DNA of 64,000 nt from Actinomadura graeca (GTDB taxonomy: Bacteria > Actinomycetota > Actinomycetes > Streptosporangiales > Streptosporangiaceae). Location of the stretch: positions 7,068,001 to 7,132,000 of the forward strand of contig NZ_CP059572.1 in the NCBI RefSeq assembly GCF_019175365.1. The letters run 5' to 3'. How positions within the stretch are numbered: position 1 is the stretch's first letter; each line of letters opens with the position of its first letter. The notes under the pieces are model-generated. The model saw only the letters and a program-made list of their open reading frames with translations, had not been told where the DNA came from and ran no database searches. Shown one piece after another: positions 11,720 through 18,108 of this stretch. A program made the position numbers and the translations under genes.

Positions 11720-13906
11720 GTGGCGAATCTCGACGAGCCGTTGCGCAATGTCCTCGGCGACAAGACGGCCAAGGTGCTGGAGAAGGGCCTCGACCTGAGG
11801 ACGGTAGGCGACCTCGTCCACCACTACCCGCGCCGCTACGCCCACCGCGGGGAGCTGACGCCGCTCAGCGGCCTCCAGGACGGCGAGCACGTCACCGTCA
11901 TGGCCGAGGTCGTGAAGGTCCAGGGCCGCGCCATCACCCGCAGCCCCGGCTACGTGCTGGAGATCACCGTCACCGACGGCACCGGGCAGCTCAAGCTCAG
12001 CTTCTTCGGGCGCAAGGGCTCCTACCGCGCCGAGCGGGAGCTGGCGCCCGGCACCCGCGGCCTGTTCGCCGGGAAGATCAGCACCTATGTGCCGCGCAGC
12101 GGCAACGTCCAGCGGCAGCTCACCCACCCGCAGTACAAGGTGGTCGCCGAGAAGTCCGCCGAGCAGGCCGCGCAGGAGTGGGCGGACGAGATCATCCCGA
12201 TCTACCCGTCCACCAAGGGCCTGGCCATCGAGACGATCGGCACGTCCGTCGGGATGGTGCTGGACCAGCTCGACCTCCCCGCCGACCCGATGCCCGCGCC
12301 GCTGCTCGGCCGCCGGAGGCTGATCGGCCTGCGCGAGGCGTACGAGGGGATCCACCGTCCGGGGTCATGGGAGGAGCTGGGCCGCGCCAAGGCCCGCCTC
12401 AAGTGGGACGAGGCGTTCGTCGTCCAGGTGGCCCTGGCCCAGCGGCGCCTTGCCGCCGCCGCGCTCCCGGCGACGCCGCGGCCCCCCTCGTTCGGCGGCA
12501 TCCTCGCCGAGTTCGACGCGCGCCTGCCCTTCGAGCTCACCGAGGGCCAGCGCCAGGTCGGCGACGAGATAGCCGCCGACCTGGCCCTGGAACACCCGAT
12601 GCACCGGCTCCTCCAGGGCGACGTGGGCGCCGGCAAGACGGTCATCGCGCTGAGGGCCATGCTGCAGGTCGTGGACGGCGGCGGGCAGGCGGCGCTGCTC
12701 GCGCCCACCGAGGTCCTCGCCCAGCAGCACCACCGGTCGATCACGGCCATGCTCGGCGACCTGGCGCAGGCGGGCCAGATCGGCGGCGCCGAGCACGCGA
12801 CGCGGGTCGCGCTGCTGACCGGGTCGCAGGGCGCGAAGGCCCGCAAGGCCGCCCTCCTGGACGCCGCGTCCGGCGGCGCGGGGATCGTCGTCGGCACCCA
12901 TGCGCTGCTGCAGGAGAGCGTGCAGTTCGCCGACCTCGGCCTGGTCGTGGTGGACGAGCAGCACCGCTTCGGCGTCGAGCAGCGGGACGCGCTGCGCGAG
13001 AAGACCGCCGGAGGCCGCCCGCACGTCCTGGTCATGACCGCGACGCCCATCCCGCGGACGGTCGCGATGACCGTGTTCGGCGACCTGGAGACGTCGGTGC
13101 TCGGTCAGCTCCCGGCGGGCCGCTCGGAGATCAGGACGCATGTGGTGCCGCCCGAGCGTCCCGCGTTCCTCGCCCGCACCTGGGAGCGCATCCGGGAGGA
13201 GGCGGCGCAGGGGCGGCAGGTCTACATCGTCTGCCCGCGGATCGGGGAGCAGGAGGGCGACGAGGGCGACTCCTTCGAGCAGGAGGGCGACCGCCGCTCA
13301 CCGCTCGGGATCATGGAACTGCTGCCGAAGCTGGAGGAACTGCTCCACGGGCTGCGCGTCGGCGTCCTGCACGGGAAACTGCACCCGGACGAGAAGGACG
13401 CGGTGATGCGCCGGTTCACCGACCGGGAGCTGGACGTCCTGCTCGCCACCACGGTCATCGAGGTCGGCGTGGACGTGCCGAACGCCACCGTCATGGTGAT
13501 CATGGACGCGGACCGGTTCGGTGTGTCGCAGCTCCACCAGCTGCGCGGCCGGGTCGGCCGCGGGTCCCTGCACGGGCTGTGCCTCCTGGTCACCGACGCC
13601 GAGCCGGGCAGCAAGGCCCGCGAGCGCCTCGACGCGGTCGCCTCCACCACCGACGGCTTCAAGCTGTCGCGCCTCGACCTGGAGCAGCGCAGGGAGGGCG
13701 ACGTGCTGGGCGCCGCGCAGGCCGGCCGCTCGTCCAGCCTCCGGCTCCTCACCCTCCAGCGGGACGAGGACGTGATCCGCGACGCCCGCGACGAGGCGAC
13801 CGCGCTGGTCGGGGACGATCCCGATCTGACCGGCCATCCGGGGCTCGCCACCGTCCTTGACTCCCTGCTCGACGAGGACAGGGCCGACTTCCTGGAAAAG
13901 GGTTAG
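11720..13906 (+). CDS. recG: ATP-dependent DNA helicase RecG
   Basis: Branch-migration helicase for stalled forks and recombination intermediates. 728 residues, full length. An N-terminal wedge (OB-fold) domain includes TVMAEVVKVQGRAITRSPGY; the helicase core has Walker A GDVGAGKTVIALRA near residue 300, DEQHRFGVEQRD as motif II, TATPIPRT as motif III and the C-terminal QLRGRVGRGSLHGLCLL motif VI. GTG start with weak ribosome binding site. The stop is followed within 30 bp by the promoter region of the leader peptide and HEAT-repeat gene. Confidence 0.96.
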   Translation: MANLDEPLRNVLGDKTAKVLEKGLDLRTVGDLVHHYPRRYAHRGELTPLSGLQDGEHVTVMAEVVKVQGRAITRSPGYVLEITVTDGTGQLKLSFFGRKGSYRAERELAPGTRGLFAGKISTYVPRSGNVQRQLTHPQYKVVAEKSAEQAAQEWADEIIPIYPSTKGLAIETIGTSVGMVLDQLDLPADPMPAPLLGRRRLIGLREAYEGIHRPGSWEELGRAKARLKWDEAFVVQVALAQRRLAAAALPATPRPPSFGGILAEFDARLPFELTEGQRQVGDEIAADLALEHPMHRLLQGDVGAGKTVIALRAMLQVVDGGGQAALLAPTEVLAQQHHRSITAMLGDLAQAGQIGGAEHATRVALLTGSQGAKARKAALLDAASGGAGIVVGTHALLQESVQFADLGLVVVDEQHRFGVEQRDALREKTAGGRPHVLVMTATPIPRTVAMTVFGDLETSVLGQLPAGRSEIRTHVVPPERPAFLARTWERIREEAAQGRQVYIVCPRIGEQEGDEGDSFEQEGDRRSPLGIMELLPKLEELLHGLRVGVLHGKLHPDEKDAVMRRFTDRELDVLLATTVIEVGVDVPNATVMVIMDADRFGVSQLHQLRGRVGRGSLHGLCLLVTDAEPGSKARERLDAVASTTDGFKLSRLDLEQRREGDVLGAAQAGRSSSLRLLTLQRDEDVIRDARDEATALVGDDPDLTGHPGLATVLDSLLDEDRADFLEKG

Positions 13907-13936
13907 TCGTGTTCCCGATTTTTCCGACTAATTAAG

Positions 13937-13965
13937 TTGACTTCATCGCCGGGCCGGGTCACGAT
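13937..13965 (+). promoter_or_regulatory. Probable sigma70-type promoter of leader peptide and HEAT-repeat gene
   Basis: TTGACT at 13937-13942 and CACGAT at 13960-13965 are separated by 17 bp. The region just upstream (13924-13942) is AT-rich against the local background and holds a near-palindrome ACTAATTAAGT that overlaps the -35 box and could be an operator. Confidence 0.45.
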
Positions 13966-13971
13966 GGGCGC

Positions 13972-14052
13972 GTGAACCCGAGTGAGGCCCTGACCATGCG
14001 CCTGCACGTCGATCTCCGGCGGCAGGCGAGCGCCCTGTGTTCCCGTCGCTGA
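13972..14052 (+). CDS. Cysteine-type leader peptide
   Basis: 26 residues from GTG 13972, or 18 from ATG 13996 (preceded by GAGTGAGG). The peptide ends MRLHVDLRRQASALCSRR, matching the actinobacterial leader-peptide pattern R-x-HVDL-x-R-x-(A/S)SALC found upstream of sulfur-metabolism genes, where ribosome behaviour at the Cys codon controls downstream expression. Here the Cys codon TGT is at 14038-14040, directly before the 5' arm (14043-14048, CCGTCG) of a hairpin whose other arm is 14072-14077. The downstream gene, 44 bp away, encodes a HEAT-repeat protein and not an obvious sulfur enzyme. Confidence 0.7.
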   Translation: MNPSEALTMRLHVDLRRQASALCSRR

Positions 14053-14095
14053 TCCCGCACTCTTCCGGATCCGACGGCTCACAGGAGGCCGCACC

Positions 14096-15010
14096 ATGAC
14101 GATCACCCAGGGACCCGGGCCGCTCGCCCGCGTCCTCGAACTGCAACGCATCCAGAACCCTGGCCTGGACGACGTGGAGCTGTATCTGCGCGACACCCGG
14201 CCCGAGGTCCGCGCCGCCGCCCTCACGGTGCTCACCGGCGCCGTCCGCAAGGGCAACGCCCCGCGCGGCACCGGCGACACCCTCGCCTGGGCGCTCGCCG
14301 ACGAGCACGAGGACGTCCGCCGCGTCGCCGCCGACGCCCTGCGCGGCCTTCCCGAGCTCTACCTGGGCGACGACGGCGTCGCCGCCCTCCAGCTGGCCGC
14401 CGCCCGCGGCCGCGACCCGTTCGTCCGCGAGACGGCGTCCGACCTGCTGGAGATCCTCGCCCAGGGCGCCGCCGAGCTGTACGCCCAGGGCCTGCAGGAC
14501 GGCGAGCCGCACGTCCGGATCCAGGCCGTCCTCGGCCTGGTCGCCCTGCGCGCCGCCACCCGCGTCGCCGAGGCCGCCGACGACCCGTCCCGCGAGGTCC
14601 GCGTCGCCGTCGCCGAGGGCCTGGCCCGCTTCCCGCTCCCCGCGGGGCTCGCCGCGCTGGAGGCCCTCCTCGCCGACCGCGACCCCGTGGTCCGGATGGC
14701 CGCCCTCGACACCGCGGCGGAGATCGGAGTCCCCGCGCCCCTGGAGGGGCGCGTCATCACCTCCACCGCCCACGCCAGCTGGCAGGTCCGCCGCCGCGCC
14801 GTCCTGGCCCTGGGCACCGCCGACCCCGCCGTGGCGGTGCAGCCGCTCCTGGCCGCCCTGAACGACCGCACAGTGGACGTCCGCCGCGCCGCCGTCCAAG
14901 CCTTGGAACAGTGGGCCGGGGATCACCCCGACGTGGTGACGGCCCTGACAGAAGCCCTCACAGACCCCGACCCAGGCGTCCGCACCCAAGTCCGCTGGGC
15001 GCTGAGCTAA
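14096..15010 (+). CDS. HEAT-repeat protein
   Basis: 304 residues made of about eight tandem helical repeats of 30-35 residues, for example VELYLRDTRPEVRAAALTVL, ADEHEDVRRVAADALRGLPE, ADDPSREVRVAVAEGLARFP and TDPDPGVRTQVRWALS. The D-x-x-x-x-V-R-x-x-A-x-x-x-L signature is typical of HEAT/PBS-lyase-like repeats, which act as protein-binding scaffolds. There is no catalytic residue set, signal peptide or membrane segment. The ATG has CACAGGAGGCCGCACC in front. Control by the preceding cysteine-type leader suggests a link to sulfur or cysteine status; this is inference. Confidence 0.85.
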   Translation: MTITQGPGPLARVLELQRIQNPGLDDVELYLRDTRPEVRAAALTVLTGAVRKGNAPRGTGDTLAWALADEHEDVRRVAADALRGLPELYLGDDGVAALQLAAARGRDPFVRETASDLLEILAQGAAELYAQGLQDGEPHVRIQAVLGLVALRAATRVAEAADDPSREVRVAVAEGLARFPLPAGLAALEALLADRDPVVRMAALDTAAEIGVPAPLEGRVITSTAHASWQVRRRAVLALGTADPAVAVQPLLAALNDRTVDVRRAAVQALEQWAGDHPDVVTALTEALTDPDPGVRTQVRWALS

Positions 15011-15113
15011 CTCGGGGCGACCCCCCAAACCCCCCGGCTGCGCGGCACGGGTCTTCTCCATCGCGCTCGCTGCGGGGCCGGGGTCACGAACTGCGGGTGG
15101 GACCGCTGGGGAG

Positions 15114-15291
15114 CGCAGGTCGCCGGTTTCTGGGCTGGGAAACCGGCGGCCTGCGGTCAGACCGTCAGTGCGGTGAGCTGGGGCACCGACGGTCTGTGAC
15201 CGGATCGCCGGTGACTTGGCTGGGGCACCGGCGCTCCGCGGCCGGGTCGTCGGTGCGCTGAGCTGGGCGCCACCGACGACCCGTCGCCGCG
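15114..15291 (+). repeat. Array of four contiguous large hairpins on a 43-bp period
   Basis: Four stem-loops lie end to end. HP1 15114-15155: 16-bp stem (one T-G wobble), loop 15130-15139. HP2 15155-15201: arms 15158-15166/15188-15196 plus inner GGTG/CACC. HP3 15201-15238: CGCCGGTG/CACCGGCG plus outer CGGA/TCCG. HP4 15237-15291: 13-bp perfect core 15243-15255/15271-15283. Each loop carries GCTGGG, starting at 15134, 15177, 15219 and 15262, so the period is 42-43 bp. Stem sequences differ between units yet stay complementary. A fifth GCTGGGG with a short CGCT/AGCG stem lies at 15105-15116. The array ends 17 bp before rsmD. Not a known element. Confidence 0.85.
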
Positions 15292-15308
15292 GCCGAACCC
15301 GGTAATTT

Positions 15309-15896
15309 GTGAGCGTGACGAGGGTCATCGCGGGGAGTGCGGGCGGGCGGCGGCTGGCCGTGCCTGCGGGACGGGATACGAGGCCGACCAGCGATCGTGC
15401 CAGGGAGGGCTTGTTCTCTACCGTCCTCGCCCTGCTGGGCCCGTTGGACGGGCTTCGGGTCGTCGATCTGTACGCGGGGTCGGGGGCGGTCGGGCTTGAG
15501 GCGCTGTCCCGGGGCGCCGCGCATGCGTTGCTGGTCGAGTCGCATCCGCGGGCGATGAAGGTCGTCCGGCAGAATGCCGAGTCGCTTGGGCTGCCTGGGG
15601 CGGTGCCTTGCGCGGACAGGGTGGAGCGGCTCGTGCGCAGGCCGCCGGACGAGCCGTACGACCTGATCTTCGCCGATCCGCCCTACGCCCATCCGGACGC
15701 GTCCGTCACCGGTCTGCTGGAGGATTTGCGCGACCATGGCTGGGCCGCTCCCGGCGCCCTGGTCGCGGTCGAGCGGGCCGCGCGGGGACCCGCGCTGCGA
15801 TGGCCGGACGGGTACGCCGCAGAACGCGACCGGCGCTACGGCGAGGCCGTCTTCTGGTACGGGCGCGCTACGGGTCAGGTCTCCGCCACGGGGTAG
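15309..15896 (+). CDS. rsmD: 16S rRNA (guanine966-N2)-methyltransferase RsmD
   Basis: SAM-dependent rRNA methyltransferase. 195 residues from GTG 15309. Motifs: RVIAGSAGGRRLAVP and TRPTSDRAREGLFS at the N-terminus, VVDLYAGSGAVGLEALSRGA (SAM-binding motif I) and FADPPYAHP (catalytic DPPY, motif IV). Precedes coaD in most actinomycetes; here a penicillin-binding protein gene is inserted between. Its leader contains the tandem hairpin array. Confidence 0.94.
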   Translation: MSVTRVIAGSAGGRRLAVPAGRDTRPTSDRAREGLFSTVLALLGPLDGLRVVDLYAGSGAVGLEALSRGAAHALLVESHPRAMKVVRQNAESLGLPGAVPCADRVERLVRRPPDEPYDLIFADPPYAHPDASVTGLLEDLRDHGWAAPGALVAVERAARGPALRWPDGYAAERDRRYGEAVFWYGRATGQVSATG

Positions 15897-17931: not shown

Positions 17932-18108
17932 CCCCCAGACGACGGCCTCCCACGCCAAGATCACGCTTCGAAGCACGGCCAGGCAAGGCGGGTTCGGAGC
18001 GCTGCGGCGATCGCACGAAGTGCCCGCCGTAGGGAGGCGCCCCAGCGCCTGACGCCAAGGGCACCGCAATAAGCTACCCTGGAACATCACCGGTTGTCGT
18101 CGTCCGCC

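Follow-up and report, generated by a model that had tools for sequence, protein, structure and literature searches.

A tandem array of GCTGGG-loop hairpins behind a HEAT-repeat gene of Actinomadura graeca, a candidate U-tract-less terminator cluster

Tandem hairpins with a repeated loop motif make up the CsrB/RsmZ-type sponge RNAs, in which the CsrA motif is GGA. In mycobacteria, intrinsic terminators are mostly I-shaped, i.e. without poly-U, and are reported within 50 nt of the stop codon (PMC12288462); the same review regards them as scarce there, with Rho as the dominant factor. Gupta and Pal 2021 (PMC8355165) describe clusters in which hairpins spaced by less than 15 nt serve as terminators, reported within 80 nt. 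The array analysed here lies in a window of 64,000 nt, the whole stretch of Actinomadura graeca DNA that was studied. With the I-shaped terminators of PMC12288462 it shares GC-rich stem-loops, the lack of poly-U and a position after a stop codon; here, the array also precedes the presumed promoter of the next gene. It differs from them in a loop conserved across species, in its four units and in its distance from the stop codon, and its terminating role is predicted. Like the clusters of PMC8355165, it lies behind a stop codon with its hairpins spaced by less than 15 nt, and it would not need poly-U. Those clusters are defined by predicted folding, whereas here the copies are homologous, have one loop in common and differ by stem changes that covary. 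Our best reading is that the array is a U-tract-less clustered terminator, or another 3'-end element, of the transcript of a HEAT-repeat protein gene (hereafter HEAT), expanded from one unit to four.

The four hairpins lay end to end on the + strand (window 15114-15290; Table 1), each with GCTGGG in its loop. Successive GCTGGG motifs were spaced by 43, 42 and 43 nt, and the hairpin cores were separated by gaps of 2-4 nt. Folded as RNA, the array reached -151.6 kcal/mol, compared with a shuffled mean of -121.8 (sd 5.3; z -5.6), and none of 200 shuffles folded as well. Coordinates, spacings and fold thus bore out the first-pass annotation, which had described four abutting inverted repeats with a shared GCTGGG loop and a period of 42-43. 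Its description of the stems as mostly perfect needs correction for unit 3, the weakest with one mismatch in 13 bp, and for unit 2, which has a bulge. The partial fifth unit that it had placed upstream dissolved into a short CTGCG/CGCAG palindrome at about 15092-15120. The G-rich stretch there was largely conserved in an alignment with A. macra and may be a relic of a type II hairpin or a product of chance. Folded singly, units 1-4 gave z values of -7.3, -3.5, -2.3 and -4.8 on the + strand and of -6.7, -5.4, -2.7 and -3.9 on the - strand. Since the units folded about equally on both strands, folding alone favoured neither.

Table 1. Features of the locus in window coordinates, and the hairpin types found after the HEAT stop codon in the genus.
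Feature	Location	Strand	Description	Model match
recG	11720-13906		upstream of leader peptide ORF	
Putative Cys-type leader peptide of HEAT	13972..14052	+	26-codon upstream ORF (...MRLHVDLRRQASALCSRR)	NF042934, 31.6 bits (cut-off 27)
HEAT-repeat protein gene	14096..15010	+	304 aa; array-type hairpins come after its 3' end in the genus	
G-rich stretch before unit 1	15092..15120	+	resembles, by eye, 5' half of relatives' type II hairpin	
Hairpin unit 1	15114..15155	+	17-nt arms, one G-U, loop TGGGCTGG	R2, 55.8 bits; unit used in building R2
Hairpin unit 2	15154..15202 (core 15158-15196)	+	loop GGTGAGCTGGG	R2, 52.5 bits; unit used in building R2
Hairpin unit 3	15200..15240 (core 15201-15238)	+	loop ACTTGGCTGGGG, one mismatch	R2, 54.1 bits; unit used in building R2
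Hairpin unit 4	15238..15290 (core 15243-15283)	+	loop CGCTGAGCTGGGCGC	R2, 49.2 bits; unit used in building R2
TAATTT, candidate -10 box of rsmD	15303..15308	+	12 nt before GTG 15315; same offset as GATACT in relatives	
rsmD	15315..15896	+	directly downstream of array	PF03602
Type I hairpin	after HEAT stop codon		GCGGGTCGCCGGTG-loop GTTTGGGCTGGGG-CACCGGCGGCCCGC; window units belong here	
Type B hairpin	after HEAT stop codon		stem like type I, loop TGGCACGG	
Type II hairpin	after HEAT stop codon		GCGGGCGGGACG-loop TTCYGGGGTGGGG-CGTCCCGCCCGC	

The genes were arranged in the order recG, leader peptide, HEAT, array, rsmD, penicillin-binding protein (PBP), cytidylyltransferase-like protein (which we take to be CoaD) and yceD. 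The Cys-type leader peptide ORF (LHVDLRRQASALCSRR) was whole in 16 of the 18 HEAT loci compared; in L064 and L066 the compared stretch began too late and held only its last codons. This conserved ORF suggests that HEAT is regulated by sulfur or cysteine. In other actinobacteria, cys operons preceded by Cys leader peptides have been described (PMC1262725). An AT-rich element (TTTCCTA..TTAA.TTGACTT) was seen before the leader peptide ORF in many loci. Against NF010374 (PRK13800), a fumarate reductase/succinate dehydrogenase flavoprotein model, the HEAT protein itself scored 207 bits, short of the cut-off of 1196; the resemblance is to the C-terminal part of the model.

At gathering scores, Rfam returned two tRNAs only in the window and no match in the loci of five relatives. 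In a permissive search, nine matches touched the array, all far below gathering scores (seven microRNA families, one Scr5676 on the minus strand and one viral element). A CRISPR array was rejected, since over 37 nt the direct copies resembled the reference copy by only 70% and 81%. So was a dispersed repeat of the REP/BIME type, for which many copies were found neither in the strain's own genome nor in genomes of the genus. The array is like the CsrB/RsmZ sponges in consisting of tandem hairpins with a repeated loop motif; unlike them it has, by eye, no repeated GGA loop motif. This candidate was rejected as well, since a CsrA gene was not found in the genome (PF02599, zero matches, compared with matches in 3 of 14 control genomes). 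A literature search, with most subscription journals outside its reach, found no description of the element.

Hairpin runs were rare in background DNA, for which 400 kb were sampled from each of two Actinomadura genomes (800 kb in total). Hairpins scoring at least 10 numbered 89 and 111 in the two samples, with zero pairs within 8 nt, and the same scan of the window returned one run, of four hairpins. At a score of at least 13, the samples held 32 and 35 hairpins, and one pair, in G080, was less than 12 nt apart.

Comparison across the genus tied the element to a single place, the 3' end of HEAT, in most members with the gene, and also showed selected pairing, a conserved loop and more units in the window than in relatives. 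HEAT was matched at E <= 1e-40 in 44 of 65 Actinomadura genomes; in five of these only a longer protein matched, and with these left out 39 HEAT loci were counted as the gene itself. Taking matches of at least 42 bits, and dropping weaker or opposite-strand ones, we found type II in 22 of the 39, type I or B in 13 (5 I, 8 B) and any type in 31; one of the eight loci without a match spanned only 25 nt. The type II model (R1) gave 22 matches at E <= 1e-5 in the 65 genomes, all of them 9-174 nt after the HEAT stop; 16 had served to build the model and 6 had not. Of these matches in relatives, 20 begin within +80 of the stop. The strongest matches of the type I/B model (R2) also fell at HEAT 3' ends, and the weaker ones elsewhere that were inspected were, by eye, unrelated palindromes. 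A hairpin was commoner where rsmD came next: it was present in 20 of 20 loci whose downstream DNA, up to 1319 nt, showed rsmD, compared with 10 of 16 in which rsmD was not seen in at least 700 nt of downstream DNA (Fisher p 0.004, the species not being independent). In loci with less than 700 nt of downstream DNA and no rsmD seen, one of three had a hairpin. In one genome, G040, in which HEAT was not matched, the type II model matched between recG and rsmD (E 6.5e-5). Together with the difference between 20/20 and 10/16, this makes a link to rsmD possible, and we counted it against a reading in terms of HEAT only.

A. macra NBRC 14102, the closest named relative among the genomes compared, also carries a four-unit array. 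Its unit 2 is altered, and all of its units keep GCTGGG; R2 matched three of the four and a simple scan detected two. Three other species have one type I unit each, and unit 1 of the window is, by eye, the closest of the four to this single-copy hairpin. Beyond the genus, the order-wide R1 search (345 genomes) found a match at E <= 3e-4 in 29 genomes. The 25 of these in the own genus include the window's genome through a weak match away from the array. Four weak matches fell in three other genera of the family, and two of them (L158, L159) share the GGGGTGGGG loop and, judging from ORFs only, seem to lie near gene ends. R1 and R2 were also run against 17 HEAT loci, including A. craniellae, Actinocorallia, three MAGs, Streptosporangium, Nonomuraea, Streptomyces and Microtetraspora; a strong match was found only in A. 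logoneensis (L195, R1), and the best R2 score was 23.2 bits. In four outgroup loci without a strong R1 or R2 match (L181, L182, L187, L198), hairpins of unrelated sequence lay between the HEAT stop and rsmD (folds by eye). Unrelated hairpins in the same spot are expected if position and pairing matter most.

The array is real and its hairpins are under selection. In the type I/B alignment of 15 rows, cut by hand around the hairpins, 96.2% of cells were paired, and 9 pairs with 26 cells had changed on both sides. Shuffles, which ignore relatedness, had means of 4.6 pairs and 7.0 cells; none of 500 was as high, and slid registers gave at most 4 pairs and 5 cells. Further pair types numbered 17, a count that 76 of 500 shuffles reached. 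In the likewise hand-cut type II alignment (16 rows), 95.6% were paired and 8 pairs with 16 cells had changed on both sides, compared with at most 3 and 5 in slid registers. Between the window and A. macra, 52 standard pairs could be registered: 47 were unchanged, three had changed on both sides and still paired, one had become G-U, and one was broken, in unit 2, whose apical part could not be registered. The first-pass claim that paired stem changes reflect selection on structure was supported by the type I/B alignment. G-U cells outnumbered A-C cells by 26:8 and 12:1 in the two alignments (21:8 on 15 non-redundant rows), an excess that may be inflated because the hairpin finder penalised G-T less than other mismatches. 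The excess suggests RNA of the HEAT (+) strand.

We hold it rather probable that the array forms the 3'-end element of HEAT mRNA, a group of I-shaped terminator hairpins lacking a U-tract, which would end HEAT transcription and shield rsmD. The array comprises stable GC-rich hairpins after a stop codon, with no U-tract and cores less than 15 nt apart. Its position after the stop codon, the presumed promoter next to it, the lack of a U-tract, the clustering and the outgroup hairpins all fit U-tract-less clustered termination. No terminator-like site with a T-run was found in window 13850-15450, so the array is not a canonical (L-shaped) terminator. The first-pass statement that the array does not match a terminator stands for the canonical kind with a U-tract, but not for the I-shaped and clustered kinds without one, which are published. 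The distance of the array from the HEAT stop, 104 nt, exceeds the 50 nt and 80 nt reported and was counted against a terminator, as were the eight of 39 HEAT loci without a match and the comparable folding of single units on the - strand. Expression of HEAT is probably under control of the Cys-type leader peptide; the array would then end its transcription and keep the transcript out of rsmD, which would be transcribed from its own promoter just downstream of the array. In the lineage that includes this strain and A. macra, one unit would have become four, relatives having one or two, and the four copies would then have drifted with compensatory changes. We infer transcription, termination, the insulation of rsmD and the direction of the expansion from these comparisons. 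A terminator-like hairpin thus occurs in one to four copies at one gene end across relatives, with co-evolving arms and a fixed loop. This is a natural experiment on two questions about U-tract-less terminators in high-GC bacteria: whether they act in clusters, and whether some factor recognises their loops.

Plain termination does not account for the fixed loop, and because a plain terminator needs none, the conservation of the loop was counted against that reading. The GGGGTGGG loop occurred in all 23 type II rows, including all 15 non-redundant ones, and mean pairwise identity in type II was 0.77 and 0.66 in the arms and 0.85 in the loop. The R1 sequences had been chosen for their GGGGTGGGG loop, so its invariance in that alignment is partly due to selection of the rows; the loop was also kept by the six strong matches outside the model and by the weaker G040 match. 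Types I and II share the loop core G(C/G)TGGG, which type B lacks, and the type I unit of G061 reads GCTGGC there. Base pairing between the loop and the 3' end of 16S rRNA was weighed and dropped, as type I loops do not fit. Perhaps the conserved G(C/G)UGGG loop contacts RNA polymerase, a termination factor or another RNA-binding protein.

The loop also bears on a second reading, in which a protein or small RNA reads G(C/G)UGGG in the 3' UTR and governs HEAT mRNA stability or output, the copies raising avidity and termination being secondary. The loop is invariant while the stems change, every unit in the window and in A. macra keeps GCTGGG, and loops with a pair of G-runs are rare among strong background hairpins (score at least 13; 1/32 and 1/35). 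We nevertheless think this unlikely, given that eight loci pair a similar stem with another loop (TGGCACGG), that outgroup hairpins at the same place are of unrelated sequence, and that CsrA was not found in the own genome. The first-pass proposal of a tandem protein-binding RNA is likewise conceivable, though not one of the CsrA kind. A more elaborate reading, improbable in our view, would make this an RNA element particular to the genus, its G(C/G)UGGG loop being recognised and type II being a switch between hairpin and G-quadruplex; the window's lineage would have given up the quadruplex form for four hairpins. Type II would fold either as a terminator hairpin or, during transcription, as a quadruplex (GGG-N-GGG-N6/7-GGGG-U-GGGG) formed from 5' arm and loop and blocking the hairpin; the switch would sit where an mRNA under cysteine-leader control ends. 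The type II 5' arm adds GGG-C-GGG. Together with the loop it completes, in 19 of 23 rows, a motif of four G-tracts of at least three with linkers of at most 7 nt; allowing an 8-nt linker raises this to 21. Such motifs numbered 135 and 129 per 400 kb on both strands of the background samples, and there was none in window 15001-15320. ViennaRNA put the type II quadruplex at about -10 to -11 kcal/mol and the hairpin at -24 to -42, so the quadruplex could win only kinetically; L109, L110 and L120 did not fold as a quadruplex, and L108 and L113 lack the motif.

Other readings move the function away from the HEAT transcript. The first-pass annotation had suggested a leader RNA in the 5' UTR that controls rsmD and the PBP gene, to which the array's closeness to the rsmD start, the hairpins in all HEAT loci with rsmD seen downstream and a sigma-70 consensus scan, which found no promoter-like site between array and rsmD, lend some weight. 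This suggestion was not supported. The hairpins stay with HEAT in the 10 of 16 loci in which rsmD was not seen next, and a simple scan upstream of rsmD found a GGG-N-TGGG-loop hairpin in 7 of 30 loci (the window's own counted), each with a HEAT match upstream; across these 30 loci the element is, on sequence comparison, no general rsmD leader. The class-level outgroups L033 and L036-L038 have no hairpin in the scanned 300 nt before rsmD, and there an apparent recG end (by eye) abuts or nearly abuts rsmD. Of 48 rsmD loci, 20 have GATACT 12-13 nt upstream of the start codon and 33 a loose -10-like pattern about 12 nt upstream of it, with hairpins further upstream or none, some genomes being counted twice. 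Alignment with relatives whose protein begins MTRVI makes GTG 15315 the likelier start in the window, ahead of GTG 15309. With a -10-like box just before the start codon, the rsmD mRNA should begin after the array; this fits a leaderless mRNA with a putative promoter of its own downstream of the array, and we regard the leader reading as very unlikely. An action as DNA, the palindromes forming a cruciform or an operator for a DNA-binding protein, is just as doubtful: the long, nearly perfect arms and the good folding of both strands agree with it, but G-U wobbles are kept preferentially on one strand, which a DNA element would not produce. REP-like mobile palindromes accumulated here by chance would give tandem copies, and other intergenic repeats occur in some relatives (by eye). 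This explanation can hardly be right, with strong model matches at one locus per genome and own-genome pattern matches (46 and 39) fewer than those of the reversed control (95 and 97). Own-genome searches also bore on the first-pass caveat that the units might be generic scattered repeats; ten loci were inspected, and none was a convincing second place.

Further palindromes and repeats were seen near these genes. In L034, from another family of the order, an unrelated hairpin with 24-nt arms and one mismatch lies 79 to 11 nt before rsmD, and the gene preceding it looks by eye like recG. Downstream of HEAT, L067, L068, L073, L074 and L078 share, by eye, intergenic repeats (CTCCTCCTTCGGGC..., GCGATCGCTGGCATCGCT...). 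Elsewhere in the window, GGCGTCAGGCGCTGGGGCGCC (18036-18056, minus strand) has four further copies in the genome, each with at most one change.
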